A stretch of DNA of 64,000 nucleotides from Hymenobacter siberiensis (GTDB lineage: Bacteria; Bacteroidota; Bacteroidia; Cytophagales; Hymenobacteraceae), in contig NZ_JAHLZZ010000001.1 of the NCBI RefSeq assembly GCF_018967845.1, forward strand, positions 1,488,001 through 1,552,000, given 5' to 3'. Shown here piece after piece: positions 1-28,813 of this stretch (the stretch's first letter is position 1; each line of letters starts with the position of its first letter). The position numbers and the translations under genes are program-made. The notes under the pieces were generated by a model. The model saw only the letters and a list, made by a program, of their open reading frames with translations, was not told the origin of the DNA and did not search any database.

Positions 1-1930
1 GTGCCGCCTACGTTAATGGCGCGCACGAAGGTGGCGTTGGTTGGCGTGGTGCCGGTGCCCGTGGTGGTCGGCGTGGTTGTAGTAGCGGCCGTCACGGTCA
101 CCGAAGAAACGGCGGTGGAGGTAGCGGCGCCGGCGTTGTTGGTGGCGCGGGCCGTTAGGCTGAGCGTGCCGGCCGCAGCGGGCGTGAAGCTGAGGGCGTA
201 GGGAGCCGTCAGGTCTTCGCCGAGCTTGGTGGCGCCGCTGAAGAACTCGACTTTGGTGATGGTGCCGTTGACGGCCGCAGCGGTGGCCGTCAGGTTCAGG
301 GCCGTGCCCACGGTGCCGGTGCTCGGGGCGCTCAGGCTAACGGTGGGGGCGCTGGGTGCGGTAGTGCCCGCGTTCTGCTTCCAGATTTCGATGCCCGAGA
401 GGTTGTTGTTATTGCTGCTCACGGTGCCGATGTTGATGGTGCCGTCGGTGATGTTGGCCGTGAAAGGGCCGAGGCGGTCCCAGTGGCCCCCGTTGCCGCT
501 GCTGTAGTTCGACTGCACGGTCTGGCCTTCGAGGGTAATGTCGAGGGTCACCGGGTTGTTATCCTCCCACATGTAGAGGTACACGCTGTAGGTACCGCTG
601 GCCACGCCGCTCACGGCAGCGCTAATGTTCGTGTCATACACCGAAGCGCGAATCATGGCCGCACGGGCGGCGTCGGTGGCCGGGTTCAGGGCGACGCCCT
701 GGTTGGCGAAGGGCGAGCCGTTGATTTGGAAGTTGCCGGCGCTGTTGCCGTCTTCCCAGCTCAGGCCGTCGACGGTGGTGGCCGTGCCGCCTACGTTAAT
801 GGCGCGCACGAAGGTGGCGTTGGTTGGCGTGGTGCCGGTGCCCGTGGTGGTCGGCGTGGTTGTAGTAGCGGCCGTCACGGTCACCGAAGAAACGGCGGTG
901 GAGGTAGCGGCGCCGGCGTTGTTGGTGGCGCGGGCCGTTAGGCTGAGCGTGCCGGCCGCAGCGGGCGTGAAGCTGAGGGCGTAGGGAGCCGTCAGGTCTT
1001 CGCCGAGCTTGGTGGCGCCGCTGAAGAACTCGACTTTGGTGATGGTGCCGTTGACGGCCGCAGCGGTGGCCGTCAGGTTCAGGGCCGTGCCCACGGTGCC
1101 GGTGCTCGGGGCGCTCAGGCTAACGGTGGGGGCGCTGGGTGCGGTAGTGCCCGCGTTCTGCTTCCAGATTTCGATGCCCGAGAGGTTGTTGTTATTGCTG
1201 CTCACGGTGCCGATGTTGATGGTGCCGTCGGTGATGTTGGCCGTGAAAGGGCCGAGGCGGTCCCAGTGGCCACCGTTGCCGCTGCTGTAGTTCGACTGCA
1301 CGGTCTGGCCTTCGAGGGTAATGTCGAGGGTTACCGGGTTGTTATCCTCCCACATGTAGAGGTACACGCTGTAGGTACCGCTGGCCACGCCGCTCACGGC
1401 AGCGCTAATGTTCGTGTCATACACCGAAGCGCGAATCATGGCCGCACGGGCGGCGTCGGTGGCCGGGTTCAGGGCGACGCCCTGGTTGGCGAAGGGCGAG
1501 CCGTTGATTTGGAAGTTGCCGGCGCTGTTGCCGTCTTCCCAGCTCAGGCCGTCGACGGTGGTGGCCGTGCCGCCTACGTTAATGGCGCGCACGAAGGTGG
1601 CGTTGGTCGGCGTGGTGCCGGTGCCCGTGGTGGTCGGCGTGGTTGTAGTAGCGGCCGTCACGGTCACCGAAGAAACGGCGGTGGAGGTAGCGGCGCCGGC
1701 GTTGTTGGTGGCGCGGGCCGTTAGGCTGAGCGTGCCGGCCGCAGCGGGCGTGAAGCTGAGGGCGTAGGGAGCCGTCAGGTCTTCGCCGAGCTTGGTGGCG
1801 CCGCTGAAGAACTCGACTTTGGTGATGGTGCCGTTGACGGCCGCAGCGGTGGCCGTCAGGTTCAGGGCCGTGCCCACGGTGCCGGTGCTTGGGGCGCTCA
1901 GGCTAACGGTGGGGGCGCTGGGTGCGGTAG
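1..1930 (-). repeat. 783-bp tandem repeats inside the beta-helix gene
   Basis: The sequence beginning GTGCCGCCTACGTTAATGGC at base 1 recurs at 784 and 1567, giving an exact 783-bp (261-codon) period. Copies 1-783 and 784-1566 are complete. The third, 1567 to about 1930, holds only the Ig-like part. Only a handful of substitutions separate them (for example near 488/1271, 552/1335, 823/1606 and 1107/1890), and the ones checked are silent third-position changes. This points to recent duplication or ongoing homogenisation. The array may continue past base 1. Confidence 0.95.
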
Positions 1931-3170
1931 GCGCGGTTGGGGTAGTGGGTGTGGTAGCGCCGGGGTCCAGCGTGATGCCATTCTGTTGCAGCTTTTGGTT
2001 CCAACGCGTGAACTCATCCCGCTCGGTTTGGAGGGTGATGGGGTTCGGCAGGTGGATGGTACCGGTGGCAATTCGAAAGCCGTAGTCGCCCTCATCCTGA
2101 CGGTCCTGAAAAGGACTATTGCGGCCCCATTGCACGTAACCAATCGTGTTGTTGGTTACGGACTGGTTCGTGAATGTTCCGCTCTGACCGTAGTAGTCGA
2201 ATACGGCAACCCCGGTGTAAGTGGCATTCAGGCGCGAACCGTCGGGCATCAGGCCGCTGGTCACTAGGCGGTTGTCGTAGTAATGTACATCATGGCCGCC
2301 GGCGATGTTCATGGCCGAGTTGCAGGTAGATACGAACTGGTTGTTGTACGACTCGAAGAAGCCTTGGGTGTTACTCTGAGTACCGTCGATTATCATGCCG
2401 GTGCCCGTAAAATCGCTGCCGTTGGCCGGGTAGGGGTACGCTCCCTGCACGTAGTTGTCGTGGATGCGGACGGGGCTGGCCGCAGTGCCCCCGGAGTTGT
2501 AGAAGTTGATATTGTCCTCTACAAGCGACTGGTTGGGCTCGTTGATGACCTGATTCCAGGCCACTTCTACGTTCGCCAGGTTCGGCACCTTGTCTGCCCC
2601 CAGGAAGTTAGAGAATTCGCTGCCGCTGTTGTTGCGGAAGCGGCCGTCGATGTTTTTGGCCGAGTTGTACCGAACCGTAAGGGTTTGGGCCGTCGAACCG
2701 TTGCCGCTCCACTGGTAGATGGCAATGCCAGTGGTTTGTTCGAGGTAATTGTGCTCAATTACCACCGACTTAGCCGAGTTAACCTCCACGAAGCGGCCGT
2801 GGCGAACCCCGTCGGCGCTTTGGGTGAGGCCATACGCTTTGTTGTTGCGGACAGTGATACTGCTGCCGCCGTTCTTCGCATCAATGATGTCGCCGGCGCC
2901 CGCCAGCACACAGTTCTCGATGATAACAGGCTGGGTGGTCTGAATAGTGATAACGGGCACCGAAGAGTTGGTGCTGCGATAATTGCCGGAATAGGTGCCG
3001 CCCTGTGTAATAACCAAGGGGCTGGAGTACGTAATGTTGGGAGCCTGTGCGAAGGCTGGTTTTAGGCCCGGTAATAGGGCGAGGAGCGCAACAAGAGCAG
3101 TTGAAAGAATGCCGGCCAAAGGATGCGGCGCAGAAAGAAGAGCGGAGGTGTGCTTTGAAATTTTTTGCAT
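1..3170 (-). CDS. Secreted right-handed beta-helix protein with tandem Ig-like/malectin-like modules (3' end outside window)
   Basis: The reading frame opens at an ATG at 3168-3170 and stays open to base 1, so at least 1,056 residues are coded and the C-terminus is missing. The start encodes a signal peptide (MQKISKHTS, then a hydrophobic stretch ending LKPAFAQA). Residues about 35-405 resemble parallel beta-helix proteins and clearly match the neighbouring lipoprotein at 3657-4964; shared strings include PNQSLVEDNIN and LPNPITLQTE. A Thr/Pro/Ala linker follows, then alternating Ig-like domains (VEFFSGATKLGEDLTAPY) and malectin-like carbohydrate-binding domains (FVRAINVGG..DGLSWE) with a period of 261 residues. 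Inference: an extracellular polysaccharide-binding or polysaccharide-modifying protein made alongside the adjacent exopolysaccharide locus. A T9SS sorting domain would be expected beyond the left edge but cannot be seen. No catalytic residues can be assigned. Confidence 0.85.
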   Translation of the reverse strand, partial: MQKISKHTSALLSAPHPLAGILSTALVALLALLPGLKPAFAQAPNITYSSPLVITQGGTYSGNYRSTNSSVPVITIQTTQPVIIENCVLAGAGDIIDAKNGGSSITVRNNKAYGLTQSADGVRHGRFVEVNSAKSVVIEHNYLEQTTGIAIYQWSGNGSTAQTLTVRYNSAKNIDGRFRNNSGSEFSNFLGADKVPNLANVEVAWNQVINEPNQSLVEDNINFYNSGGTAASPVRIHDNYVQGAYPYPANGSDFTGTGMIIDGTQSNTQGFFESYNNQFVSTCNSAMNIAGGHDVHYYDNRLVTSGLMPDGSRLNATYTGVAVFDYYGQSGTFTNQSVTNNTIGYVQWGRNSPFQDRQDEGDYGFRIATGTIHLPNPITLQTERDEFTRWNQKLQQNGITLDPGATTPTTPTAPTAPSAPTVSLSAPSTGTVGTALNLTATAAAVNGTITKVEFFSGATKLGEDLTAPYALSFTPAAAGTLSLTARATNNAGAATSTAVSSVTVTAATTTTPTTTGTGTTPTNATFVRAINVGGTATTVDGLSWEDGNSAGNFQINGSPFANQGVALNPATDAARAAMIRASVYDTNISAAVSGVASGTYSVYLYMWEDNNPVTLDITLEGQTVQSNYSSGNGGHWDRLGPFTANITDGTINIGTVSSNNNNLSGIEIWKQNAGTTAPSAPTVSLSAPSTGTVGTALNLTATAAAVNGTITKVEFFSGATKLGEDLTAPYALSFTPAAAGTLSLTARATNNAGAATSTAVSSVTVTAATTTTPTTTGTGTTPTNATFVRAINVGGTATTVDGLSWEDGNSAGNFQINGSPFANQGVALNPATDAARAAMIRASVYDTNISAAVSGVASGTYSVYLYMWEDNNPVTLDITLEGQTVQSNYSSGNGGHWDRLGPFTANITDGTINIGTVSSNNNNLSGIEIWKQNAGTTAPSAPTVSLSAPSTGTVGTALNLTATAAAVNGTITKVEFFSGATKLGEDLTAPYALSFTPAAAGTLSLTARATNNAGAATSTAVSSVTVTAATTTTPTTTGTGTTPTNATFVRAINVGG

Positions 3171-3656: not shown

Positions 3657-4964
3657 TTAATTAAACAATATATTATAATATGATAGTTCTGGTGCGACGG
3701 GCGCGAAGTGCCCGTTGGTGGGGTAATAAGTGGCACCAGATGTTATGAGCGCATTTTTGCGTGCCGGTAGGGCCGGGAGGGGACCTACCCGCAGCCGGTG
3801 CGTGCGGAGCTTCAACTGCCAGCGGGTCCACTCGGCCTGTTCCGTTTGCAGGGTGATGGGGTTGGGTAGGTGCAAGGTGTTTGAGCAGGCCCCGCAGGCT
3901 TCGGGCCGGATATCCTGGCGGTTGGGATAAGGAGTGGTGCCGCCTTCGAAATAGAACCCGATAGTATTGTTGCTGAAATCGTTGTTAAAGAATACGTCCT
4001 TGGGCTGATGGTAGGCATTCCAAAGGCCTGCCCCGGCATAGTTCGCCGCCAGCCGGGTGCCGTCGGGCAGCAAGCCGCAGGTAACGAGGCGGTTGTCGTG
4101 AAAGTGGTTGTCGTGCCCGGCGGCTATGTTCATGCCAATGCAGGCGCTGACTACCTGGTTGTGGGCTCCGTCCACGTAAGCGGTGGCCGTCAAGGCGGCG
4201 CGGCCACTGCCATCGAGCGTAATGCCCGAGCCGGTGAAATCGGAGCCGGTGGCCGGATAGGGGTATGCTCCCTGAATATAATTGTCGTGGATACGGACCG
4301 GGCTGGTGCGGGTGCCTCCGGAGTTATAAAGATTGATATTGTCCTCTACAAGCGACTGGTTGGGCTCGTTGATGACTTGGTTCCAGGCGATTTCCATGTT
4401 GGCTACGCCCGGCAATGCGTTCAGACCCAGGAAATTCGCCTTCGTGCCGCCGCCGTCACGGTAGCGGCCATCAATATTCCGGGCCGAATTGTAGCGAACG
4501 GTGAGCGTTTGGGCTGGCGTGCCGTCGCCTCCCCATTGGTAAATGCTGATGCCGATGGTATGCTCAAAGTAGTTATGTTCGACCCGCACAGAGCGCCCGG
4601 AATTGACCTCTAGGAAGTGCCCGTGGCGGGTTTGGTCAGCCGATTGCGGCAGGCCGTATCCCCGGCAGTTCACAACCGTAAGCGTAGCCCCGCCGCTGGT
4701 GGCCCGAATCAAGTCGCCGGCCCCCATCAGGGTGCAGCCGCTCAGGGTAACGGGTTCGGTGGTTTCGATACGGATGCAGGGCACGTCGGAATCGGAGCTG
4801 CGGTAAGAGCCGGTATAAGTGCCCCCAGCGCGAATAATCAACGGTTTCGAGCTGTTATCTGCGCCGGCAGAGGAAGGCTGACACCCGGCCGTGATGGCCG
4901 CCAGGCCCACCCCGGCGGCCAGCTGCCAGCGGCGGACCGCCGCTCCGGTGGCCGGGCGGCTCAT
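3657..4964 (-). CDS. Right-handed beta-helix lipoprotein of the exopolysaccharide locus
   Basis: 435 residues from the ATG at 4962-4964, which overlaps the stop of the upstream GT11 gene as ATGA and so suggests translational coupling; an in-frame ATG at 4991 would add nine residues. The N-terminus is a lipoprotein signal with lipobox ITAGC (Cys28). The rest has the short Asn- and Gly-rich strand repeats of parallel beta-helix (PbH1-type) proteins, e.g. NNDFSNNTIGFYFEG. It is a paralogue of the N-terminal domain of the gene at 1-3170 but lacks the Ig-like/malectin-like array. Known families with this fold include pectate lyases, epimerases and other polysaccharide-active proteins. Inference: a membrane-anchored factor that trims, modifies or binds the polymer made by this operon. 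The substrate and catalytic residues are unknown. Confidence 0.85.
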   Translation of the reverse strand: MSRPATGAAVRRWQLAAGVGLAAITAGCQPSSAGADNSSKPLIIRAGGTYTGSYRSSDSDVPCIRIETTEPVTLSGCTLMGAGDLIRATSGGATLTVVNCRGYGLPQSADQTRHGHFLEVNSGRSVRVEHNYFEHTIGISIYQWGGDGTPAQTLTVRYNSARNIDGRYRDGGGTKANFLGLNALPGVANMEIAWNQVINEPNQSLVEDNINLYNSGGTRTSPVRIHDNYIQGAYPYPATGSDFTGSGITLDGSGRAALTATAYVDGAHNQVVSACIGMNIAAGHDNHFHDNRLVTCGLLPDGTRLAANYAGAGLWNAYHQPKDVFFNNDFSNNTIGFYFEGGTTPYPNRQDIRPEACGACSNTLHLPNPITLQTEQAEWTRWQLKLRTHRLRVGPLPALPARKNALITSGATYYPTNGHFAPVAPELSYYNILFN

Positions 4965-5890
4965 AGCGCTTGCGCCATCTGCGTGCTCCACTGCACGGTT
5001 TCCTGGTCCTCAAACATCACGAATTCGTGTAGCGACGTGATGGGCTGGTCGTGCTGGTGCAGGTGGCAAAGCGGGACGCGGCCGTAGAACGAGGCCCACA
5101 TGGAGTAGGTGCTGAGCGGCCCCACAATGTAGTCGCAGCCGGCCATGGCATACAGGTCCTCCACGGGATGGTTGGTGGAGCGGCCGGTGTCGAATTCGGC
5201 AAAATCGGCCGCCGGAATGGGCTCGTTCGAAAATAACAGGAACCGGACCCGGGTTTCTTGGGGGAATAAGGCCACGACTTCGTGCATGGCCCGCACGTAG
5301 GTGGCATTGCTGTAGAGAAAGGCCCCACCGTACCAGCCGGCATAGTCGCCCCGGCGAATGTGGATGCCCACCAGGACATCGGCCCGTTCGCGGTTGGTGG
5401 CCAGTACCTGCTCTACGGCTTGGCGGTGGAGCCTGATGGGCCGAAAGAACTGCCGGAGCAGGTTGCCGTGCTTGGCAAAGTTGGTTTTGTCGCGAAACTG
5501 CCAGCCGTTTATGAGCAGGGTGCGCGTGTGGCGGGCCTGCACGAGGTAGCCAGTGCTGTTGAGGTCGACATCGTCGGGGCCGGAGTCGTCGAGAATCGGG
5601 GCACCCAGGCTGCGCGGCAGCCAGGGAAGGCGTCGGAGCAAGGCCTCGCCCCACTGCCACTGCAGGGCGCTATACAACGCATTGGTCACGGCACTGCCGA
5701 GATGCAGCTGCACGGGCAGCCCCCCAAACGAGGCCACCTGCTGGCCGGCAGTGCCTTCAAAAAAGGCGTAATGTGCCCCGAACGAGGGGATGGCCAGCTG
5801 ATAGTTGTGCTCAAGGGCATTCACTAAAAAATGAGAGCTTATCAGCAGCTGGTTACCGAAGCCGTTGAAATCTTTTGTAAGAATGACCAT
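4961..5890 (-). CDS. GT11-family glycosyltransferase (alpha-1,2-fucosyltransferase-like)
   Basis: 309 residues. The N-terminal GFGNQL segment (about residues 10-15) and HIRRGDY (177-183) are the nucleotide-sugar-binding signatures of GT11 fucosyltransferases. A later block, DLYAMAGCDYIVGPLSTYSMWASFYG, covered here only in outline (DLYAM.GCDY...STYS.WAS), is the conserved C-terminal region. The family moves fucose from GDP-fucose to a galactose-containing acceptor, so fucose in the exopolysaccharide is likely. No GDP-fucose synthesis genes (gmd/fcl) are in the window, so the donor sugar is inferred. It sits 41 bp after the GT2 gene and overlaps the lipoprotein gene by four bases. Confidence 0.85.
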   Translation of the reverse strand: MVILTKDFNGFGNQLLISSHFLVNALEHNYQLAIPSFGAHYAFFEGTAGQQVASFGGLPVQLHLGSAVTNALYSALQWQWGEALLRRLPWLPRSLGAPILDDSGPDDVDLNSTGYLVQARHTRTLLINGWQFRDKTNFAKHGNLLRQFFRPIRLHRQAVEQVLATNRERADVLVGIHIRRGDYAGWYGGAFLYSNATYVRAMHEVVALFPQETRVRFLLFSNEPIPAADFAEFDTGRSTNHPVEDLYAMAGCDYIVGPLSTYSMWASFYGRVPLCHLHQHDQPITSLHEFVMFEDQETVQWSTQMAQAL

Positions 5891-5931
5891 GGGTATTGTG
5901 GCTTAAAAGTGGTGGATGTGGGACGTAGCGC

Positions 5932-6771
5932 TTAGTGCAGAAAATAGCCGACCAGCCGACGGGCGTAGCCGTTCAGCAGGTAATAGGGGAGGTAGGGCCG
6001 GGGGCAGTTTTTGAAGGTGAAATGCGTGAAATTGACCAGATTGCCGCCGCCCCGGATGCCGAACAAGTGCTGGTAATAGCCGCGCAGGCTACGCTGGCGC
6101 CGGGTTTGTTCCTGGCCGCTTTCCTCGGGGTAGGTGCTCAAGCGGGCATCGTAGTTACAAAACACCGGGAAACCATGGCGGCGGGCCACGCTGGTGTAGT
6201 CAAAATCAGCGAGGTAGTGCGGCAGGCGCTGCTCGTCGAACAGGCCAATGGCTTCAATCACGGCCAGCGGCACGAGCAGGCCCCGGCCCGGCAGGTACGT
6301 CACCGGATGCAGGCCGTGGCGCTCGGCGGGGGCCAGCTCGGTCAGTAAGTCGCGTCGGGTATTGGTGCGCCAGTCCAGGCGTTCGCCACCGTACACGGGT
6401 TCGCCGGTGCTCACGTCCAGCTCCAGTGGCCCCAGCAGGGCGGTGGGGTGGCGCTCGGCGGCGGCCAGCATTTGGGCCATAAAATTGGGCAGCGCCAGTA
6501 CGTCGTTATTCATCGTCATCACGCAGGTGGCTTTTAGGGCCAGGGCGCGGCGAATGCCGGCATTCACGCCAGCCGTCCAGAACAGCTGGCCGTTCCCGGT
6601 CACTACTTCTACTTCCGGAAACTCCTGGGCCAGCATCTGGGCGGTGCCATCGGTGGAGCCGTCGTCGACGACGACGACGCGGAAATCGGCGCGGGTTTGC
6701 TGCCGGAGCGAAAGCAAGCAGTCGCGGGTGTACTGCTTGCGGTTGAAAACGGGAATGACGACGTAGAGCAT
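5932..6771 (-). CDS. GT2-family glycosyltransferase
   Basis: 279 residues, GT-A fold. It begins LYVVIPVFNRKQY and carries VVVDDGSTDG (about residues 34-42) for nucleotide-sugar binding. MNND (87-90) stands in the place of the usual DXD metal-binding motif, as in rhamnosyltransferase-like (WbbL-type) members of GT2. A hydrophobic C-terminus may associate with the membrane. It lies 39 bp after the HlpA-like gene in a same-strand operon. Expected role: adding one sugar to the lipid-linked repeat unit in the cytoplasm. Donor and acceptor cannot be read from sequence. Confidence 0.88.
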   Translation of the reverse strand: MLYVVIPVFNRKQYTRDCLLSLRQQTRADFRVVVVDDGSTDGTAQMLAQEFPEVEVVTGNGQLFWTAGVNAGIRRALALKATCVMTMNNDVLALPNFMAQMLAAAERHPTALLGPLELDVSTGEPVYGGERLDWRTNTRRDLLTELAPAERHGLHPVTYLPGRGLLVPLAVIEAIGLFDEQRLPHYLADFDYTSVARRHGFPVFCNYDARLSTYPEESGQEQTRRQRSLRGYYQHLFGIRGGGNLVNFTHFTFKNCPRPYLPYYLLNGYARRLVGYFLH

Positions 6772-6810
6772 CGGGTGCAGAATAGAAGGGTACGATTTGA
6801 TTATAGCAGC

Positions 6811-7818
6811 TCAGGGCGTGGCCGCTACGGGCTGCGATACGGGCTCGGCCGTTGCAAAGGGGAGCAACAGCCGGGCAGTGAGCCGCCGGACCATGGCCAG
6901 GGCGCGGCCCGTCAGGTGCTCGCGGAAGTACCGCTGGTCGCGCCGGGCATCGCGCAGCACCACGGGGGGGTGGTGCAAGGGAAACGGCAGCCGGTACACC
7001 ACCGGGTGCACGAACTGGTCGTGGGGGTCGAACGTATGGGTCGCATCCTCGCCGAAGCCGATGTTGGTAACCAGGTTCACGGCCGGTATCACCGTGAGGC
7101 CACCGTGCGCGGCCACAGCGAAGTGCCACTGGTAGTCCCAGATATGAGCCGGCTGCGGCCCGGTGCGCACGGTTTCAAACTTGCGCAGCCAATACTGCCG
7201 CTCCATCAGGGCCGGGTACACGTTGGTCAGCGCTCTGCGGCGGCGCAGCTCAGGCAGCAGGGTCAGGTCAAAATCGAAGTACTGCCACGCGCGACGCCAG
7301 GTGGCCCAGCCCCAGCTGTGCACCCTGCCCGAAAAATGGTACGAGTCGGCCCCGGCCGCTACCGGGCGCCGGGCCTCCTGCGCCAGGTTGTTGCCGCTGA
7401 TATGCATCACGCGGGTATCGTGGCGGTAGTGCCGCAGCAGCTCATCGCAAAAGTGGAAAAAATCGGGCGTCGGGAGGCAGTCGTCTTCCAGGATAATCCC
7501 TTCGGTTTCGTGCTTGAAAAACCAGGAAATGGCAGATGCCGGCCCTAGGCCGCACCCCAGGTTTTCGTCCCGAAACAAGGTGAGGACTTCGCACGGCCAG
7601 GGCTCGCTGTTGGTAACCATGGCGCGGGTGAGGGCGCAGCGCAGGGCATCGGTGGCGTGGTGGGGGCGGGGGCCGTCGGCCGCCACGTAGAGGCGCGCCG
7701 GATGCGCCCGGCGCACGGCTTCCAGCACCCGCTGCGTGAGGTGCGGCCGGTTGAAGACGATGAGCAGAACGGGCGGGGCCAGCTCAGCGGTGGGTGGTGG
7801 AAGTGGCGGCGTCGGCAT
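6811..7818 (-). CDS. HlpA-like nucleotide-diphospho-sugar transferase
   Basis: 335 residues. After a Pro-rich start it opens PPVLLIVFNRPHLTQRVLEA and carries EDDC (111-114) as the likely metal/nucleotide site. WGWATWRRAW and IWDYQWHFA are typical of a family often annotated as hemolytic protein HlpA-like or glycosyltransferase. The family name comes from an old assay; the fold points to a GT-A transferase. The start overlaps the end of the Wzy-like gene by 35 bp, so the two are probably translated together. Likely another assembly enzyme for the polysaccharide repeat unit. Confidence 0.8.
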   Translation of the reverse strand: MPTPPLPPPTAELAPPVLLIVFNRPHLTQRVLEAVRRAHPARLYVAADGPRPHHATDALRCALTRAMVTNSEPWPCEVLTLFRDENLGCGLGPASAISWFFKHETEGIILEDDCLPTPDFFHFCDELLRHYRHDTRVMHISGNNLAQEARRPVAAGADSYHFSGRVHSWGWATWRRAWQYFDFDLTLLPELRRRRALTNVYPALMERQYWLRKFETVRTGPQPAHIWDYQWHFAVAAHGGLTVIPAVNLVTNIGFGEDATHTFDPHDQFVHPVVYRLPFPLHHPPVVLRDARRDQRYFREHLTGRALAMVRRLTARLLLPFATAEPVSQPVAATP

Positions 7819-9115
7819 GGTTCAAGGAAGGAATGGACACAAAAGCCGGCCGCACAGCACGGGCGGCCATGGGCAGGCGCACTGCCACGCGGCCAGGAGC
7901 TGCGGCGGCGGCGGCCAGAGACAGCCCGAGGATGCCGAAGAAATACAGGGGCCAGTCGTACGAAACGCTGTATACCAGCGAGCTGAGCGAGAAGATGACG
8001 AAGGTGGCCGTGGGCGGGGTCAGGGGAATAGGGCTCAGCAGGCGGCGGCCCAGCAGCAGCACGGGCACCAGCACCGTGAGCAGCAGCCCGGTAATGCCGA
8101 AGTAAAAAATGCGGTCGACGTAGAAACTGTGGAAGTGATGCCCGGTCCGGTCTTCCCACACGGGCACCTGGCTGCCGCCATCGTCGGCCAGCGTGTAGAA
8201 CTGCACCGGCAGCTCAAACCCTTTCAGGCGCATGCCCGCAATGGGGTATTCTTCCAGATAGGGCTTGTAGGCTTTGAACTGCTTGAGTCGCCAGCCACCC
8301 GTGCCCTGCTGGCTGGGGCGCATGATGTCGTTGATACTGCCTTCCAGCTTCTTCACTACGTGTGGGTCGCTGAGGGCCACGAGGCCCCCGGAAACCAGTA
8401 CGAGCAACGGAATGAGAAACATGGGCAGCAGGCGAGTAGAGCTCAGGCGCGCGCCCGTAACCCGGCCCAGGGCCATCACCAAGGCATTGAGGGCCAGGGC
8501 GACGCCCATTGATAGCCACACCGAACGGTGCTGCAGGAAAAGGATGAGCGCCGTGCCCAGAAAAAATATCAGCAGACGCGCCATCCCGCCGTGCGCCATG
8601 TACTGGTTGAAGTAATAGAGGGTAGGCAGCAGGAGCAGCATGGCCGAAGTGGAGCTGAACCCGCGCTCGTTATCCAAAAATGCCGATAAGCTCAGCGCGT
8701 CCCGGTGGTAGAATGCCAGGTTGGCGGCCAGGCCCAGTACCAGCAGCCCCATCAGCTGGCCAAATGGCGGCGGCCCAAACCGGCGGTGAAACCCGTAAAT
8801 CGCAAACACATGCACCATGACCAAGAACTTGGCGAATACGTGCGGATACACCGCCCACGTCTGCCATCCGGCGTAAGATTCGAGGGATAGCGCCCCCAGG
8901 GCGGCCACCACCAGCAGCAGCCAGCGCTGCATAATGGTGCCCATGTACCGGTAGCAGAGCACGACAATGCCCATCGAGCAGGCCAGCATCAGCCGCCCAT
9001 ATAGCTGGAGCATGGGCGAACTTTCATCGAAAAACACGAACTCGGTGAAGGCCCGGTCCGTGGCGATGATGCCCAGCACCGGCAGCAAATACAGAAAGCG
9101 TAAACTGAGTTTCAT
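7784..9115 (-). CDS. Wzy/O-antigen ligase-like polytopic membrane protein
   Basis: 443 residues with roughly ten or more hydrophobic segments spread over the protein. QHRSVWLSMGVALAL resembles the short RSxxL-type motif at the start of the Wzy_C/O-antigen ligase region. A long, more polar loop follows (GSINDIMRPSQQG... YTLADDGG...), as in polysaccharide polymerases and ligases. In a locus with Wzx, Wzc and Wza, polymerase is the most economical role: joining undecaprenyl-linked repeat units on the periplasmic side of the inner membrane. Polymerase and ligase cannot be told apart by sequence alone, and this family is poorly conserved. Confidence 0.75.
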   Translation of the reverse strand: MKLSLRFLYLLPVLGIIATDRAFTEFVFFDESSPMLQLYGRLMLACSMGIVVLCYRYMGTIMQRWLLLVVAALGALSLESYAGWQTWAVYPHVFAKFLVMVHVFAIYGFHRRFGPPPFGQLMGLLVLGLAANLAFYHRDALSLSAFLDNERGFSSTSAMLLLLPTLYYFNQYMAHGGMARLLIFFLGTALILFLQHRSVWLSMGVALALNALVMALGRVTGARLSSTRLLPMFLIPLLVLVSGGLVALSDPHVVKKLEGSINDIMRPSQQGTGGWRLKQFKAYKPYLEEYPIAGMRLKGFELPVQFYTLADDGGSQVPVWEDRTGHHFHSFYVDRIFYFGITGLLLTVLVPVLLLGRRLLSPIPLTPPTATFVIFSLSSLVYSVSYDWPLYFFGILGLSLAAAAAAPGRVAVRLPMAARAVRPAFVSIPSLNHADAATSTTHR

Positions 9116-9166
9116 GGGATGTTGCGTGGTTGGTAGTTGAATAGTGGCCGGGTTGCCCCGTACTCC

Positions 9167-10297
9167 TCAGGAGAACAGCTGGGTTTCAGGGGTTAAAACC
9201 AAGGCATCCTGTCGGGCTTCTTCGTACACCTGCCGGGTTTGGGCCGCCGCTCGCTCCCAAGTGAAGTCGCGCACCCGCGTCAGTGCTCTGTTGACCAGCG
9301 TATGGCGCAGCGCGCGGTCGCAGAGCACGCGGTCGAGCTGTTCGCGCAGGTCGTCGGCATCGTACGGATCAAAATACTGGGCCGCATCCTGCGCGATTTC
9401 GGGAAAGCACGAGGCATTGCTGAGTACCACGGGGCATTGCTGGCCGAAGGCTTCGAGAATAGGAAACCCGAACCCTTCATACAGCGAGGGAAACACAAAG
9501 GCCCGCGCCCGGTGGTATAGCTGGTTGAGTTGGTCATCGGTGAGGTAGCCGAGCTGGTGGGTGCGCTTGGCCACCCCAGCCTCGCGCAGCATCACCAGCT
9601 CGGCTTCGCTGAAGGGACCGCCCCCGGCGCACATCAGGTGCAGGCCGGGGTATTGTTGGTGCAGCAGGCCGAAGGCCTTTACCAAGCAACCGAAATTCTT
9701 GTAGTCCCGGCGCGTGCCCGTGAAGAGCAGATAGTCGTCGGGGGCGGCCACGGGCACTTGGGACGAGCTGTGGTGCACCACGTGGCCGTGGTGCACCACC
9801 ACCACCCGCTCGGGCCGCACGGGCAGCAGGCGCAGCACGTCGGCCCGGGTGTGTTCCGATACGGTGATGATGCGCGCAGCCCGGGCAGCCAGCAGGCCCA
9901 GCTCGGGCCCCCGCGACTGGAAATACTCGCTGAACAAGGTTGAAATCATATCATGGATGGTGATAACCAACGGCTTGTCACCCATAATATCCAGAAAATA
10001 AGCTTGGTCGTTGCCCGTCGGGTGCAGCACATCGTAGTCCTGCCGTGCAATGGCCCGCCGGGCCGCCCGCCGGTTAAAGTACTGCATCACCCGCCAGCGC
10101 CCGCGCACGGGCAGGCCCGGCAAAAACTGGCGGTGCCGGGTGTGCTCCCGGTCGCGCAGGTACAGATTGTTGCTCAGCACCACTGGCAAGTCGCAGGTCA
10201 AGCCGGGCCCGGCATGATGGATAAGCTCGTAGAAGTAGCGCGATACTCCACCGTAGTCCTGAATAGAGAATGTTTCGGGTTCGTAGAGTACTTTCAT
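9167..10297 (-). CDS. GT4-family glycosyltransferase (copy 1 of tandem pair)
   Basis: 376 residues, GT-B fold. It starts MKVLYEPETFSIQDYGGVSRYFYEL. The C-terminal donor domain has FTGTRRDYKNFGCLVKAFG (in the region near residues 193-210) and the E-X7-E motif EGFGFPILE, then CFPEIAQDAAQYFDP. These are hallmarks of retaining GT4 enzymes of the WbnH/mannosyltransferase-like type. Its neighbour at 10393-11505 is a close paralogue over the full length. Expected to add one sugar to the repeat unit in the cytoplasm. Donor unknown. Confidence 0.9.
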   Translation of the reverse strand: MKVLYEPETFSIQDYGGVSRYFYELIHHAGPGLTCDLPVVLSNNLYLRDREHTRHRQFLPGLPVRGRWRVMQYFNRRAARRAIARQDYDVLHPTGNDQAYFLDIMGDKPLVITIHDMISTLFSEYFQSRGPELGLLAARAARIITVSEHTRADVLRLLPVRPERVVVVHHGHVVHHSSSQVPVAAPDDYLLFTGTRRDYKNFGCLVKAFGLLHQQYPGLHLMCAGGGPFSEAELVMLREAGVAKRTHQLGYLTDDQLNQLYHRARAFVFPSLYEGFGFPILEAFGQQCPVVLSNASCFPEIAQDAAQYFDPYDADDLREQLDRVLCDRALRHTLVNRALTRVRDFTWERAAAQTRQVYEEARQDALVLTPETQLFS

Positions 10298-10392
10298 CGG
10301 GCAAAGGCTAAAGCAGCGAAGCTGCCGATTGAGAAAAAAGGGCTAAGCCGGGCGCTGGCGGCAATTCGGTGAGCGCAACGGCCGCACGCTCG

Positions 10393-11505
10393 TTAGCAGG
10401 CCAGCATCGGCGAGTCCTCCCGCGCCTCCTCGTACACGCGGTGGGTATCGGCCACGGTGCGGGCCCAGGTGAAATCGCGCACCCGGTCCTGGCCCCGGCG
10501 CACCAGAATCTGGCGCAGGGCGTGGTCGTAGAGCACACGGTCGAGCTGCTCGCGCAGGTCGTCGGCATTGCTGGGGTCGAAGTAGAGGGCTGCGTCCTGC
10601 GCGATTTCCGGGAAGCACGAGGCGTTGCTGAGCACCACCGGGCACTGCTGGCCGAATGCTTCGAGAATAGGAAACCCAAACCCCTCATAAAGCGACGGAA
10701 ATACGAAAGCCCGCGCCCGGTGGTATAGATGATGCAGCTGCCCATCGGAGAGGTAGCCGAGCTGGTGGGTGCGCTCGGCCACGCCGGCTTCGCGCAGCTG
10801 GGTCATTTCCTGCTCGGTGAAGGGGCCGCCGCCGGCGCACATCAGGTGCAGGCTGGGATATTTGGCGTGCAGCATCCCGAAGGCCTTCACCAGGCACCCG
10901 AAATTTTTATAGGTCCGGCGGCTACCGATGAACAGCAGGTAGTCGTCGGGGGTGGCCACGGCGTCCTGGTAGGGGTAGTGGCGCACGGTGTGGCCGTGGT
11001 GCACCACGGTTACGTGGTCGGGGGGCACGGGCAGCAGGCGCAGCACGTCGGCCCGGGTGTTTTCCGAAACCGTGATAATACGGGCGGCCCGGCTGGCCAG
11101 CGTGCTCAGCTCGGTACCGGAACGCTGGTAAAATTCGCTGAATAGCGCCGGAATCATGTCGTGAATGGTGATGACAAACGGCTTCTTGTTCAGCAAATCC
11201 AGAAACCAAGTCTGGTCGTTCGTGGTGGGGTGAAACACGTCGAACTTCTGCCGCTGAATGGCTTTGCACGAGGCCCTGCGGTTGGCATATTGCATCATGC
11301 GCCACAGGCCGGGCACCGGTATGCCGGGCAGCAGCCCCAGGTGGCGGGTGTGCTTGCGGTCCTTCAGGTAAATGTTGTTGCTGAGCACCACGGGTAGCTC
11401 GCAACTCACCTCCGGCCCGGCGTGGTCGATGAGCTCGTAGAAATAGCGGGAAACGCCCCCCACATCCTGGATGGAAAACGCCTCGGGTTCGTACAGGATT
11501 TTCAT
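10393..11505 (-). CDS. GT4-family glycosyltransferase (copy 2 of tandem pair)
   Basis: 370 residues, homologous to the downstream copy from end to end. It shares the start motif (ILYEPEAFSIQDVGGVSRYF), FIGSRRTYKNFGCLVKAFG, and a donor-site block that is nearly the same in both proteins (EGFGFPILEAFGQQCPVVL). The N-terminal acceptor-binding halves differ more than the C-terminal halves. This pattern suggests an old tandem duplication in which both enzymes kept the same sugar donor but may use different acceptors; that is inference. The gene is 14 bp after the flippase gene and 95 bp before copy 1. Confidence 0.9.
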   Translation of the reverse strand: MKILYEPEAFSIQDVGGVSRYFYELIDHAGPEVSCELPVVLSNNIYLKDRKHTRHLGLLPGIPVPGLWRMMQYANRRASCKAIQRQKFDVFHPTTNDQTWFLDLLNKKPFVITIHDMIPALFSEFYQRSGTELSTLASRAARIITVSENTRADVLRLLPVPPDHVTVVHHGHTVRHYPYQDAVATPDDYLLFIGSRRTYKNFGCLVKAFGMLHAKYPSLHLMCAGGGPFTEQEMTQLREAGVAERTHQLGYLSDGQLHHLYHRARAFVFPSLYEGFGFPILEAFGQQCPVVLSNASCFPEIAQDAALYFDPSNADDLREQLDRVLYDHALRQILVRRGQDRVRDFTWARTVADTHRVYEEAREDSPMLAC

Positions 11506-11519
11506 GGCCAGGGCGGGAG

Positions 11520-13184
11520 CTAGACGAGCTCAGTTTCAGCGGTGGAAAAATGGGAGGGGTGGGATTCGGCCGGCATTTCAGCATCCAGCTCGATGGCCAA
11601 GGCGGTAGTGGGCGCTGGCACTGTGGCTGGTGCCTCACCGGCCTGCCGGGCCAGGCGGGCGGCCAGGGCATGCAGCAGGCGCGGAACCAGGCGGTCGGTG
11701 GCCGTGGCGTGGGTGCCGGTGAGGCGGGCCAGCAGGGCGCGCATCACGGTGCGCAGCTGCACGGGCGGGCGCACCAGCACCAGGCTGCCCAGCACCACGG
11801 CCCCGGTCAGCATTTCGGCAATGAGTATGGCCAGGGCGGGCGCGTGCAGGGCCAGCAGCCCCAGGCGCACCACCCCAATGGCCCCGGCGGCCACGGCACC
11901 CGCCAGCACGCCCGGCCCGTAGGCGCCCAGCACCGCGAAGGGGGGCGTACCCAGCTCGCGCCGCATAATGTTGGAATACAGGGCCGTGCGCAACAGCTCG
12001 CAGCCTACCATGGCCCAGGCCACGCCCACCAGCCCAAATTTGCTGCCCCCATACAGCAGCACCGTGAGCGCCGCCAGGGATACCAGCGAGAGCAGCAGCT
12101 TGCGGCTGAGGGCCGCCGTGGCATCGCACACCACCCCGGCAAACATGGTGATGGCGCTCAGCACATACGTCACGCTGATGACCTGCAGAATGGGCACGGC
12201 GGCCATCCACTTCTCGCCCAGCATCACGCGCACTATTTCCGGGGCGGCTACCATGGCACCGGCGCACACCGGCGTAATAATCATGGCTACCAGCGTGATG
12301 CTGCTCAAATAAACCTCGCGCAGCCGCGCCCGGTTGGCTTGCATCTGGCTGAAGGACGGGAACACCACCTTGGCCACGTTGCTCGACAGTAGGTACACTG
12401 GCAGCCCAATCAGCAGCCCGCCGCGGGTGTAGATGCCCAGCGCCGCCGGCCCTAGCAGCCGCCCAATCAGCAGCGTGTCCAGCGACTGCGTCACGAATTC
12501 CACGAAGCTGATGGCCGACATGCGGCTGCCGTACGCCAGCAGCGGCTTGTAAGCGTCCCAGCTGAATAGCGGCCGCAGCGTGTGCCGCACCACGCCGTAG
12601 GACAGTACGCTCATTATCAGGCCCTGTCCTAGCGTGGCGCCCACTAGCGCCCATACTCCGAAGCCCTGCCAGGCCAGCACCATGCCCAGCCCCAGGTAGC
12701 TTATCAGAAACGAAGCCATCTCGAAAATAGCCAGCGCCCGGAAGCGCATGGCCCGGTGCAGCAGGCTCATGGCCGTGCCGTTGAGGCCGCTGAAGAGGAT
12801 GCCCAGCGCCAGCGCCCGCACCACGGGCACCACCTCGGGCTGCTGCACTATATTGGCCGCCAGCGGCGCGCCCGCCACCAGCAGTCCCGCAAAAAACACC
12901 CCCAGCACCACCGACGACGTGAACGCCGCCCGTACATCACGCTCCGTCAGGTCGGGCTTCTGAATGATGGCCCGCTCCATGCCCATCTTGGCGAAGTATA
13001 CCCCGAAGCGCAGTATTACGCCCGCCAGCGCCACCAGCCCGAAGGCGGCGGGGCTCAGCAGCCGGGCCATCACGGCGGTGTAGCCCACTTGCAGCACCGA
13101 GTTGACGATGGTGGCCGTCATCGTCCACTTCACACCATTGACGGTGACCACGGTCAGGTTTTGCGGTTCGTTGGTGGAGGCCAT
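11520..13184 (-). CDS. Wzx-type lipopolysaccharide/oligosaccharide flippase
   Basis: 554 residues from the ATG at 13182-13184 (MASTNEPQNLTVVTVNGVKW). A longer frame to an ATG at 13232 exists, but that codon lies in a dispersed palindrome, so I prefer the shorter start. The protein has about 12-14 hydrophobic segments and the MOP-superfamily opening (TVNGVKWTM...YTAVMARLLSPAAFGLVALA) typical of the MVIN/polysaccharide-transporter group related to WzxC. It should flip the undecaprenyl-linked repeat unit across the inner membrane. The C-terminal 70 residues form a polar, Pro/Ala/Thr-rich cytoplasmic tail. Confidence 0.88.
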   Translation of the reverse strand: MASTNEPQNLTVVTVNGVKWTMTATIVNSVLQVGYTAVMARLLSPAAFGLVALAGVILRFGVYFAKMGMERAIIQKPDLTERDVRAAFTSSVVLGVFFAGLLVAGAPLAANIVQQPEVVPVVRALALGILFSGLNGTAMSLLHRAMRFRALAIFEMASFLISYLGLGMVLAWQGFGVWALVGATLGQGLIMSVLSYGVVRHTLRPLFSWDAYKPLLAYGSRMSAISFVEFVTQSLDTLLIGRLLGPAALGIYTRGGLLIGLPVYLLSSNVAKVVFPSFSQMQANRARLREVYLSSITLVAMIITPVCAGAMVAAPEIVRVMLGEKWMAAVPILQVISVTYVLSAITMFAGVVCDATAALSRKLLLSLVSLAALTVLLYGGSKFGLVGVAWAMVGCELLRTALYSNIMRRELGTPPFAVLGAYGPGVLAGAVAAGAIGVVRLGLLALHAPALAILIAEMLTGAVVLGSLVLVRPPVQLRTVMRALLARLTGTHATATDRLVPRLLHALAARLARQAGEAPATVPAPTTALAIELDAEMPAESHPSHFSTAETELV

Positions 13185-13218
13185 TGGGGTGGTGGTTTTG
13201 GATGGTAGGCGAGTGAGT

Positions 13219-13263
13219 GTCATGCCGAGCATTCTGCTTGATGCGCAGAATGCTCGGCATGAC
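13219..13263. repeat. Dispersed palindrome, GTCATGC-family
   Basis: A perfect 19-bp inverted repeat: left arm GTCATGCCGAGCATTCTGC (13219-13237), right arm at 13245-13263, loop 7 nt. It lies between the Wzc-like and Wzx genes. The outer GTCATGC(C/T)GAGC sequence is shared with elements at 19164, 50635 and, in a diverged form, 41992. Confidence 0.9.
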
Positions 13264-13306
13264 GGGCTTTGCTATGACGTTCTATTTCCGTTAGTTGCTT
13301 CCCGTC

Positions 13307-15691
13307 TCAATACCCGTATTCATAAGCCTTCTGCTTATACCGATACTCGTAGTTGTGGTTGAAGTGCATGTCGTTGATAATCATGTATAAATGCTTGATG
13401 CGCTGCGACTGGTGCAACTCGTTTATCTGGTGCATCAGGGTGCGCTCGGTGTAGTTGTGGCGCACCACGTAAATGTTGGCATCGAGGAAGCGCACCAGCA
13501 CGAAATATTCGGCCACGAAGCCTACGGGCGGCGTGTCGAGCACCACGTAGTCGTATTCGGCGCGGAGCTGGGCCACGAGGTCGGCCATGCGTTGGCGCTC
13601 CAGCAGCTCGGTGGGGTTGGCGGGTATCTGGCCGCAGGTTATCACATCGAGGTGGGGCACGCCGCTGGGCCGGCAGGCTTCGTCCAGGGTGCTTTCCTCG
13701 CGCAGGTAGCTGGCCAGACCGTGGGCGGGCACGGGGTCGAGGTTGAAGTAGCTGGCTACGGTGGGGCGGCGCAGGTCGGTTTCCACCAGCATCACGCGGC
13801 GGCCGGCCATGGCCAGTTCGGTGGCAATGTTCACGGCACAAAAGGTTTTGCCCTCGCCCGGAATCGACGAGGTCACGCCCAGCACCTTCTTATCCATCCC
13901 CGCCGACAGGTACTGCAAATTCACCCGAATGGAGCGAAACGACTCCGCAATCGGCCCTTTGGGGTCTTGCAGCATCGTCACTTTGTCGTGTTTTGAGCCG
14001 TGCGCTACTACGCCCAGCAGCGGAATGCTCGTGACTTCGGCCAAGTCCTCGCGGCCCTGAATGCGGCGGTTGGCCTTGTCCAGCAGCAGCACCAGGCCGG
14101 CGGGCAGCAGCACGCCCGCCAGCGCGGCCATCAGCCAGGCCAGCATCGGTTTCGGCGACTCGGGGCCGGGGCTGGTTTGCTGCGCCGGGTCGATAACTTT
14201 CTTGTCGGTCGCATTCGTGGCCAGTGCAATGGCCGCCTCGTTGCGCTTATCAACCAGGAAGTTGTAGTTCTTCTCGTTGAAGTCGCTGGTGCTTTTTAAC
14301 GAGGTTAGCTGGCGCTCACTTTCGGGCATCTGGCTCATCTGGCCACGCACCTGGCTCAGCTGGCTGTCCAGGTCGCGGAGGGAAATATCGTTGGCCTGGC
14401 TCATGTTGGCCAGCGTTTGAATCAGCGATTCCTTGGTGTTGCGGATGCGGCCGTCGAGCACCGTTAGCAGCGGGTTTTCGCCGCTGGCGGTGGCGCTCAG
14501 CTCGGCTCGCTTCTCGTTCAGGTTGCTCAGCTGCATAATCAGGCTGTTGAGTACGGGGTCCTCGATGCCCGCGCTGCTGGGCGAGGCCACCTGGCTGGCG
14601 TTGCGGTTGGCGCGCAGGTAGCCCAGCATGTTCTGGTAGTATTTGCGGCGGGTGGCAATCTGGGCGCGGTCGGTCTCGAGCCCGCTCATGCGCTGGATGC
14701 CCGTGCTCGACTGGGCGGCCACGTCCAGCACCCCGCGCGTGGCTCGGAAGGTGGCCAGCGCCTCGGCCGACTGCCGCCGCTGGCCCGAGAGCTTATCAAT
14801 CTCCTGGTTCAGGAAAGTCAGCGTTTTGCGGCCGGTCTGGTCCTTCTCGCGCAGGTCTTCGGCAATGTACTGCGTCATAAGCGTGTCCAGAAACTGCGTT
14901 CCCTTGGCCGGAACCGTGTTTTTGGTGGTCAGCTCGATAATGAGCGACTCGTGGTCGATGGGCCGCACGGCCAAGCTGCCTTGGTACTGGCCGGCCGCGC
15001 CGTTCAGGTCGTTCAGCACGAAATAGTAGGCCGCCGGCTCCTGCCCAAACGGCATGCCCGGCTCGGGCTGCAGTACCGCCGTGAGCAGGCGCGAGCGCAG
15101 GGTATCGCCCCAGGCACCGGTCTGGTCCACGCTCACATCGGTGATATCCGAAATCCGCTCGCTGGTGGGCAGGCTGAAAAGCGTGCCTTTTTTGGCCGTG
15201 GCGTGCAGCCGGAAGCGCCCCGGTCCGGCCGGCTCCACGTAAATGGGCACGCCGGCCAGCTGCGGCGCCTGCAAATCGACCCAGACACGAAACGGCACCG
15301 CGCCCGCCGCCCGCTCGCGCACCTGCAACGGCCGCAGCTTGTTCAGCCAGGTGGCTGGCTGGGCGTAGTAGCTCACGGCGTAGGGCAACCGGGCCACGGC
15401 CTGCCGCACAAACTCAGTCGAGGTGAGCACGCCCAGCTCGTCCTCCATCTTGGGCCCTTTTTCGTGCACCTGCAGCATCTGGAGCAGCTCCTGGGCCTGT
15501 TTCGAGCCGCTGCCCTGGTCGCCGAGCAGCATGGTAGACCGGAAAGCGTACACCGGGGCCTTCACCTGCAGGTACAGGTAGGCGCAGCCGCCCGCCAGCA
15601 GCATGGCCAGCACAAACAGCGGCCAGCGGGTGCGCAGCTTAAAAAACAGCGCGTGCAAATCAATCTCGTCAGGAGCGGGCTGGGTTTCCAT
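13307..15691 (-). CDS. Wzc-like polysaccharide co-polymerase with bacterial tyrosine kinase domain
   Basis: 794 residues. The N-terminal Wzz domain has a first membrane segment near residues 20-40, a long periplasmic coiled-coil region (about 270-460), and a second membrane segment near 525-545. The cytoplasmic BY-kinase domain shows Walker A SSIPGEGKTF (about residue 610), Walker A' ETDLRRP (about 640) and Walker B YVVLDTPPVG (about 718). The C-terminus is a tyrosine cluster (YEYRYKQKAYEYGY), the usual autophosphorylation tail. It should control chain length and export together with the Wza-like protein. About 100 bp separates it from the wza-like gene. Confidence 0.93.
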   Translation of the reverse strand: METQPAPDEIDLHALFFKLRTRWPLFVLAMLLAGGCAYLYLQVKAPVYAFRSTMLLGDQGSGSKQAQELLQMLQVHEKGPKMEDELGVLTSTEFVRQAVARLPYAVSYYAQPATWLNKLRPLQVRERAAGAVPFRVWVDLQAPQLAGVPIYVEPAGPGRFRLHATAKKGTLFSLPTSERISDITDVSVDQTGAWGDTLRSRLLTAVLQPEPGMPFGQEPAAYYFVLNDLNGAAGQYQGSLAVRPIDHESLIIELTTKNTVPAKGTQFLDTLMTQYIAEDLREKDQTGRKTLTFLNQEIDKLSGQRRQSAEALATFRATRGVLDVAAQSSTGIQRMSGLETDRAQIATRRKYYQNMLGYLRANRNASQVASPSSAGIEDPVLNSLIMQLSNLNEKRAELSATASGENPLLTVLDGRIRNTKESLIQTLANMSQANDISLRDLDSQLSQVRGQMSQMPESERQLTSLKSTSDFNEKNYNFLVDKRNEAAIALATNATDKKVIDPAQQTSPGPESPKPMLAWLMAALAGVLLPAGLVLLLDKANRRIQGREDLAEVTSIPLLGVVAHGSKHDKVTMLQDPKGPIAESFRSIRVNLQYLSAGMDKKVLGVTSSIPGEGKTFCAVNIATELAMAGRRVMLVETDLRRPTVASYFNLDPVPAHGLASYLREESTLDEACRPSGVPHLDVITCGQIPANPTELLERQRMADLVAQLRAEYDYVVLDTPPVGFVAEYFVLVRFLDANIYVVRHNYTERTLMHQINELHQSQRIKHLYMIINDMHFNHNYEYRYKQKAYEYGY

Positions 15692-15719
15692 AGATTAGGA
15701 GTAGAAAAATGGTAGGCTG

Positions 15720-15800
15720 ATTGAGTTAAGATTTAGAAGTTGAGAGTTAGGGGTTTAGATTCTAACCACTTGATTTTTAACTATTAATTCTTAACTCAAT
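15720..15800. repeat. AT-rich palindrome between wza-like and wzc-like genes
   Basis: Outer arms ATTGAGTTAAGA (15720-15731) and its complement (15789-15800) enclose an AT-rich spacer with several GTTA/TAAC blocks. It belongs to the same loose group as elements at 33023 and 47980. The right arm overlaps the last bases of the wza-like gene. Confidence 0.75.
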
Positions 15801-25669: not shown

Positions 25670-25881
25670 ATAGAGTGAAGAGTGGGAAGACAAAAACGGT
25701 TGGGCAACAGCTTTTAATTGCTGCGAATGAATGAGGGATTTCCCGAAAAACAGTTGCGTTGCCCGGGTGCGCCAGGTTTGGGAATTGAAGGTTGGCACCG
25801 AAGCGCAATTGCCAGGCAAATGCCTTCAGTGCCAACTTCTCAACGGGCAGTCGATGGGGTGAAATAGTGCGGCTGCGCGCG

Positions 25882-28632: not shown

Positions 28633-28813
28633 GAAAAAGGGTAACAGAGAAATATGACTATTGAGAGTGCTGCAATCTTTACTCAACTTGCATAGTGCAG
28701 GCAAATCGATTGCGCATGCAATATCCTGCATTTTTTCATCAACTGTTTTAAGAATTCGTCATCAAAAACATCATACTGTAGTAATTGCCCTGATACATCG
28801 CTGATAGACAGCT

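Follow-up and report, generated by a model that had tools for sequence, protein, structure and literature searches.

A probably secreted beta-helix protein with near-identical Ig-malectin repeats at the edge of a polysaccharide cassette in Hymenobacter siberiensis

Introduction

AlgG, a mannuronan C-5 epimerase, is encoded in the alginate locus. In an excerpt of one article, RbmB of Vibrio cholerae is described as a VPS lyase encoded in the exopolysaccharide/biofilm cluster (PMC11637428). Excerpts of two further articles characterize the Periscope proteins, such as CdrA, SasG, Rib and Sgo_0707, by tandem folded domains of more than 50 residues encoded by near-identical, recombination-prone DNA, and describe CdrA as a Periscope protein that binds exopolysaccharide (PMC8201768, PMC9704523). 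Further marks of this class are a repeat number that differs among closely related strains, an array shaped as an elongated rod, and anchoring at the cell surface.

Here we describe a gene of H. siberiensis at the left edge of a window of 64,000 nucleotides (G000:C1:1488001-1552000, where G000 is the genome of the window). A tandem unit of 261 residues with very high DNA identity is the first feature that it shares with the Periscope proteins as outlined in those excerpts. It differs from them in that the unit is a pair of an Ig module and a malectin-fold module, in that the history of the head is tied to a polysaccharide cassette, in that the copy number was equal in the two strains seen here, and in that no anchor was found. 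The protein may be classed as a Periscope-like repeat protein and as a putative new variant at the family level. RbmB (PDB 9ozl) is a beta-helix protein like the head (VIA Z 23.4, rmsd 3.1 Å, 268 aligned residues, 13% identity), but its solved chain has 348 residues and therefore no Ig-malectin tail. The mannuronan C-5 epimerases AlgG/AlgE (PDB 4nk6, 5lw3 and 2pyg) share the fold of the head with Z of 24.0-24.2 and 9-16% identity. No earlier account of this family was found in the open-licence PMC literature, covered mostly by titles and the starts of abstracts, which is weak evidence of absence.

On balance, we lean towards the following reading of the gene. The protein, encoded in a polysaccharide locus, would be secreted to the matrix or the cell surface. 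Its beta-helix head, which has the fold of many polysaccharide lyases and epimerases, would bind or process the strain's own exopolysaccharide, and the tail, in which Ig spacers alternate with malectin-fold modules, would attach the protein to a conserved glycan in the matrix or on the cell surface. Unequal recombination between Ig modules would have enlarged the tail from two Ig-malectin units to four, the new copies would go on exchanging sequence, and the additional MalA copies may raise avidity or reach. The head would travel with the variable polysaccharide cassette and the tail with the conserved flank.

Gene structure and the near-identical array

The left edge of the window cuts a minus-strand gene, of which 1-3170 lies inside the window, and the remainder was read from the whole genome (L009, G000:C1:1478001-1492500). 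Coordinates without a locus name are those of the window, and features lie on the minus strand unless stated otherwise. The open frame, L009:8809-13227, has its leftward end at L009:8809 (window -1191) and comprises 1,472 amino acids counted from a TTG at window 3227. The ATG at window 3170, 19 codons inside the TTG start, is the likelier start, since a signal-peptide-like stretch (3051-3170) follows it directly; this is a hydrophobic stretch to ...AFA-QAP, judged by eye from the sequence.

The signal-like N-terminus is followed by a parallel beta-helix domain (residues about 60-425; 1953-3050), then by Ig-MalA-Ig-MalA-Ig-MalA-Ig and finally by MalB, so that there are four Ig and four malectin-fold modules. 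The Ig modules begin near residues 438, 699, 960 and 1221, and the malectin-like modules occupy residues 544-690, 805-951, 1066-1212 and 1321-1467, respectively. Ig module 1 (residues 439-504) is located at 1716-1913, and Ig modules 2 and 3, the same residues shifted by 783 and 1,566 bp, are located at 933-1130 and 150-347, respectively; all three are Pfam Big_7 matches. MalA copy 1 (1149-1601) was assigned from the unit model and a VIA match, and copy 2 (366-818) is a repeat of it. Only the beginning of copy 3 (1-35) is inside the window, the rest lying beyond the edge. The diverged module MalB (L009:8827-9267) and the fourth Ig module are located outside the window.

Three in-register copies at a spacing of 783 bp were found within window 1-1930. 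When the sequence was compared with itself at +783, 4 of 1,147 positions were unlike (489, 549, 825 and 1107), all of them silent and at the third codon position, and the self-match ended from window 1931 onward. The full array, L009 9286-11930 (window -714 to 1930), spans 2,645 bp or 3.38 units of 261 residues and contains Ig modules 1-4 and malectin modules 1-3 (MalA). Across the whole array, adjoining copies were unlike at five places, which correspond to four unit positions and are all silent. Tandem Repeats Finder, whose longest period is 500, missed the array. The near-identical 783-bp repeats with few silent differences that an initial annotation had described from the window were borne out over the whole array, and extension to the left of the window, read here from the whole genome, completed the gene and gave four units. 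Its description of every unit as one Ig plus one malectin-like domain within a near-identical array held for the three MalA copies but not for the C-terminal MalB, which lies outside the array and shares 63% amino acid identity with MalA.

The beta-helix head

The parallel beta-helix fold of the head is clear in the predicted model (mean pLDDT 92.6). The best 50 VIA rows for the head had Z of 22.7-24.8 and comprised PL6 lyases, AlgG/AlgE epimerases, NosD, RbmB and inulin-processing enzymes, as well as the adhesin PfbA and phage tailspikes. By sequence, the head was below every Pfam and NCBIfam cut-off, with Pfam Beta_helix just below. A phmmer search of the PDB gave one chain (E 0.75), the best PDB match of the head profile was a pectin lyase (E 0.062), and the best Foldseek E value was 2.2e-3, none reaching 1e-3. 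The head was aligned with 79 of 100 other heads (80 of 101 in all, 24 of the aligned heads being tail-less paralogues). Residues invariant in 80 of 80 aligned heads included several D, H, R, Y and N, for example H253, D222, R261 and R317 in the numbering of the model.

These invariant residues, the Z values to PL6 lyases, AlgE/AlgG epimerases and the VPS lyase RbmB, among others, and the adjoining Wzx/Wzy genes would also suit a polysaccharide-modifying enzyme, that is, a lyase, hydrolase or epimerase acting on the strain's own polysaccharide like RbmB or AlgG/AlgE, with the repeats raising its affinity for the substrate. RbmB is, in the excerpt cited above, likewise encoded within a biofilm gene cluster (PMC11637428). 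We regard such an enzyme as a serious candidate that is nevertheless somewhat improbable, as non-enzymes of the same fold (NosD and the adhesin PfbA) reach similar Z and no catalytic residue was identified in the head.

Predicted folds of the repeat unit and the C-terminus

Big_7 (PF17957) matched the window part of the protein in three stretches (E = 8.9e-27, 94 bits against a gathering cut-off of 24.1), scored 43.9 bits for one unit, which is above the cut-off as well, and was matched by all 63 units at E <= 0.1. The unit was modelled from a 63-row alignment (A1), which omitted 1 of 63 other units because it ran past its locus and in which three units were shortened to stop before the stop codon; alignments A3 and A4 were made without the second genome of the species (G072). 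The unit model had a mean pLDDT of 92.7 and a pTM of 0.64, and the only segment below 50 was the linker between the Ig and malectin halves (96-101). In VIA-align 2, the Ig half matched 9kvu (Z 15.3, rmsd 1.3 Å, 91 aligned), and the malectin half matched human malectin 9ikp_A (Z 14.6, rmsd 3.0 Å, 146 aligned) and the FERONIA ectodomain (Z 15.2, 2.6 Å, 152 aligned). Malectin surfaced only in this second look; the best 50 Foldseek rows for the unit were beta-glucuronidases, Ig-like modules and CBM35, CBM36, CBM61 and CBM6 chains, with no malectin among them. The C-terminal region of Bacteroides uniformis beta-glucuronidase 2 (PDB 6d8g) reached Z 17.7 across both modules of the unit with an rmsd of 18.5 Å, so that the modules match but their mutual placing does not.

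By sequence, the malectin part of the repeat matched no Pfam family at E <= 10, and phmmer against the PDB gave 2 weak, unrelated chains. The C-terminal MalB matched Pfam Malectin (PF11721) below the gathering cut-off (E = 0.026, 14.9 bits against 23). A profile of 91 malectin modules found 9 weak PDB sequences, none of them malectin, the best being an exo-beta-D-glucosaminidase module (E 0.097). Pfam Malectin matched 15 of the 91 modules at E <= 0.01, the repeat itself not being among them. The repeat has the same predicted fold as malectin (PF11721; PDB 9ikp) without a Pfam Malectin match, and fold comparison is what supports the malectin assignment. Of the Ig and malectin folds first proposed for the 261-residue unit, both were recovered by structure prediction, but the malectin fold was not recovered by sequence.

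No Pfam or NCBIfam domain, T9SS C-terminal domain included, was found in the last 160 residues of the protein at E <= 0.001. The T9SS sorting domain (PF18962 / TIGR04183) ends 29 of 57 scanned family members and has 86 matches in the genome of the window. In contrast to such T9SS cargo, this protein and those of H. artigasi 1B (G009), H. negativus BT442 (G046), G025, G021 and G005 end 0-5 residues past the last malectin module. T9SS sorting of this protein was rejected for want of a C-terminal sorting-domain match. A defence role was also rejected, the single PADLOC match (PDC-M12B, 23 bits, E 1.3e-5, residues 600-638) being taken as chance. Two neighbouring long ORFs, 22835-25819 and 25882-28731, have ends with T9SS sorting domains (G000:C1:1510847 and 1513894, respectively).

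Unit number across relatives

In a search of 120 genomes of the genus, the head was detected in 65. Regions were taken from 59 genomes besides this one, which makes 60 of the 65 with the head, five being omitted, and some genes were cut by contig ends. Among 58 genes with a head and at least one further domain, four malectin modules were present in 2, three in 5, two in 32 and one in 4, and none was detected in 15. Both genes with four modules belong to the two genomes of this species. All 15 genes without detected malectin have Ig modules; two of them were examined by Pfam, and a T9SS sorting domain was found in both and CBM_4_9 in one. The nearest relatives, H. artigasi and H. negativus, have Ig-MalA-Ig-MalB only. 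These counts support growth of the tail from two to four Ig-malectin units in this species. They agree with the very recent expansion that had been proposed from the window, with two malectin modules in the nearest species and four here. The variation in copy number between strains that had been proposed along with it was not seen, the gene of the second genome being equal in length with four units in each (2 of 2 genomes of the species equal), and gain or loss of units was thus not observed directly; the number of malectin modules does change between close species (4 v 2; 3 v 2).

In 16 of the 30 genes that have two or more Ig modules, the best pair within the gene had a rounded DNA identity of at least 93%; one of these genes is on the complete chromosome of H. 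qilianensis (G061), with Ig modules that are 100% identical. In 20 of the 30, the Ig modules resembled each other more than they did any Ig of the remaining fetched genes, and the same was true of the malectin modules in 11 of 39; both counts take in the two genomes of this species without comparing them to each other. In a separate case, the draft assembly of H. lapidiphilus (G035), both modules were 100% identical. Across the genus, Ig modules are often homogenized inside the gene and malectin modules less often. Because they are nearly identical inside the gene, Ig modules would suit as recombination substrates, and the simplest history would be unequal recombination between two Ig modules, with exactly one Ig-MalA unit gained per event. 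The malectin modules hold invariant aromatic and acidic residues, which together with their separate identities suggests a function for these modules. The gene offers a natural test of how spacer modules are homogenized while the neighbouring binding-type modules stay distinct.

Tandem folded domains of more than 50 residues, near-identical DNA, the position beside polysaccharide genes and the unlike unit number between close species would equally fit a Periscope-type stalk like those of CdrA, SasG and Rib, in which the repeats would serve solely as a spacer of variable length that holds the beta-helix head outward, and malectin-type sugar binding would be incidental. We consider a mere stalk unlikely. 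The repeat number is equal in the two strains, the search of the last 160 residues gave no C-terminal domain, the low-confidence linker and the pTM of the one-unit model do not favour a stiff rod, and the malectin modules stay distinct in most genes and keep their invariant residues.

In two genes of the family, L087:2948-6116 (G066) and L116:1556-4737 (G062), the last malectin module was in another frame and overlapped the gene end, which may reflect a frameshift, a sequencing error or a switchable end. At L104:6059-6988 (G115), an additional ORF at the end of the contig encodes extra malectin modules next to a gene with three of them.

The polysaccharide locus

A tail-less beta-helix paralogue of 444 amino acids (3657-4991) is located directly upstream of the gene. 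It is followed by a type-specific polysaccharide cassette (4961-13232) encoding GT11, GT2, an ORF without a Pfam family (6811-7818), Wzy_C, GT4, GT4 and a Polysacc_synt (Wzx-type) flippase, and by export genes (13307-16578) encoding Wzz/AAA (13307-15691) and Poly_export (15796-16578). A GT61 gene is also present in the locus. The tail-side genes are ones that we take to encode a GDP-mannose dehydratase-like (GMD) and a GDP-fucose synthase-like (GFS) protein. By its predicted gene content, the locus is of the Wzx/Wzy type, and the polysaccharide setting first ascribed to the gene is confirmed by the genes that adjoin it.

Of the 59 fetched regions, 58 contained at least one homologue of a polysaccharide gene of this locus, as did 59 of 66 named loci, the two sets overlapping. 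In 15 of the 59 regions and 14 of the 66 loci, the only polysaccharide matches were to GT2/GTx glycosyltransferase queries, which indicate a polysaccharide locus less strongly. Two heads occur together in 45 of 59 regions and 47 of 66 loci. Members of the beta-helix family were detected in 89 of 150 sampled genomes of the taxonomic family (named members Hymenobacter, Pontibacter and Solirubrum) and in 3 of 295 genomes sampled in the class, all three of which belong to this genus and one of which is this genome. Its members are mostly located beside polysaccharide genes. A head with 44% identity was encoded on L176, from an Oligoflexia MAG, possibly on a mis-binned contig. About 9.5 kb past the 3' end of the gene, to the left of the window, a plus-strand open frame of 1,675 amino acids (L120:6310-11334) contains a glucose/sorbosone dehydrogenase-like domain, PKD, InlB-type repeats and one malectin-like module of the same family.

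Split history of head and tail

In 500-bp bins compared with H. artigasi, the left flank from window -5.5 kb was 92-97% identical and the tail 91-97%, except for two bins at window 1-1000 with 89 and 78%, where we think that the surplus units align only to a diverged copy. The head was 64-68% identical and the cassette 66-82%, there was no match at 9.0-11.5 kb (two GT4 genes), and identity was again 91-95% from window 13.0 kb; bins 13001-14400, the part of the export side compared, at its start, were likewise 91-95% identical. The change was sharp and lay at the junction of head and Ig1 (1930-1953, no strand), where bins of 100 columns passed from 52 and 67% to 84 and 95%. H. negativus had the same left edge, and there the low stretch ended near 10.5 kb. 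In codon-aligned DNA of this genome and H. artigasi, identities were 64, 95, 96, 65, 95 and 97% for head, MalA, MalB, tail-less paralogue, GMD and GFS, respectively. Between H. qilianensis and G085, they were 78% for the head, 92 and 94% for the tail, 92% for GMD and 93% for GFS. On these identities, the gene straddles the edge of the Wzx/Wzy cassette, its head going with the cassette and its tail with the flank, and this is clear in the group of this species and in one other pair. It offers a natural test of which part of the protein recognizes the variable polysaccharide, namely the head that changes along with the cassette, and which part, the constant tail, does not.

A head identity lower by at least 10 points than that of either malectin module was seen in 4 of 32 close pairs, of which three belong to a single group of species; this count leaves out 3 pairs with G072, with which it becomes 6 of 35. 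A general divergence of the head across the family was rejected, as 28 of the 32 pairs did not have the 10-point drop. In G063, G041, G053, G051 and G110, the tail-less cassette paralogue was mostly 70-79% identical against 82-86% for the head, a pattern that is unexplained by a simple rule in which the head moves with the cassette. The rank correlation of cassette-minus-flank identity with head-minus-tail identity was 0.73 over 24 of the 32 pairs, which is only a hint, as the pairs are non-independent and the value depends heavily on three pairs from a single group.

A further interpretation of the junction is that the Ig-malectin tail acts as an in-frame recombination anchor at the cassette edge. 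Any Ig-malectin unit could recombine in frame with any other, and an incoming cassette of another polysaccharide type would enter with its matching beta-helix head and be joined to the tail already present, so that the head and the polysaccharide that it matches would be exchanged en bloc. In that case, the array would have grown as a by-product of cassette exchange or as an aid to it. We offer this interpretation tentatively and doubt that it is correct.

Exchange between copies in two strains

The two genomes of the species showed 26 mismatches in 11,115 bp of the locus. Ten differences were in the gene, and the 8 of these that lay within the array occupied just 4 unit positions; when 8 differences were placed at random 200,000 times, four or fewer unit positions were never obtained. 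Taken unit by unit, the four sites are AGAT, GAGG, GAGT and G in the genome of the window and GGGT, AGAT, AGGT and G in the second genome, so that the unit haplotype A-G-A-T is carried by unit 1 in the former and unit 2 in the latter. Since the variants are in different copies in the two strains, sequence has been exchanged between copies, or units have come and gone, after the two strains diverged. This re-sorting of variants between copies is the most direct evidence obtained, and it comes from one pair of genomes with unknown read types, in which short-read polishing could misplace variants. The continuing gene conversion proposed at the outset accords with the eight array differences on four unit positions and with the one haplotype at a different unit in each strain.

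Identical repeats are a known source of assembly error, and the near-identity could in principle be an artefact of a single or double unit in assemblies whose read types are both unknown. We judge this highly improbable, as both genomes of the species (4 and 3 contigs, with main contigs of 4.7 and 4.6 Mb, respectively) give the same four-unit gene and the variants are placed differently in the two. That the copies are old and held identical by strong constraint, without recent duplication or exchange, is scarcely credible: the differences between copies are silent, which fits constraint, but the copies are almost identical at silent sites as well, whereas MalA has 95% DNA identity to H. artigasi, and the nearest species do not have the extra units.

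On the plus strand, antisense ORFs at 483-941 and 1266-1724 recur with the array and were taken as by-products of GC-rich coding sequence.
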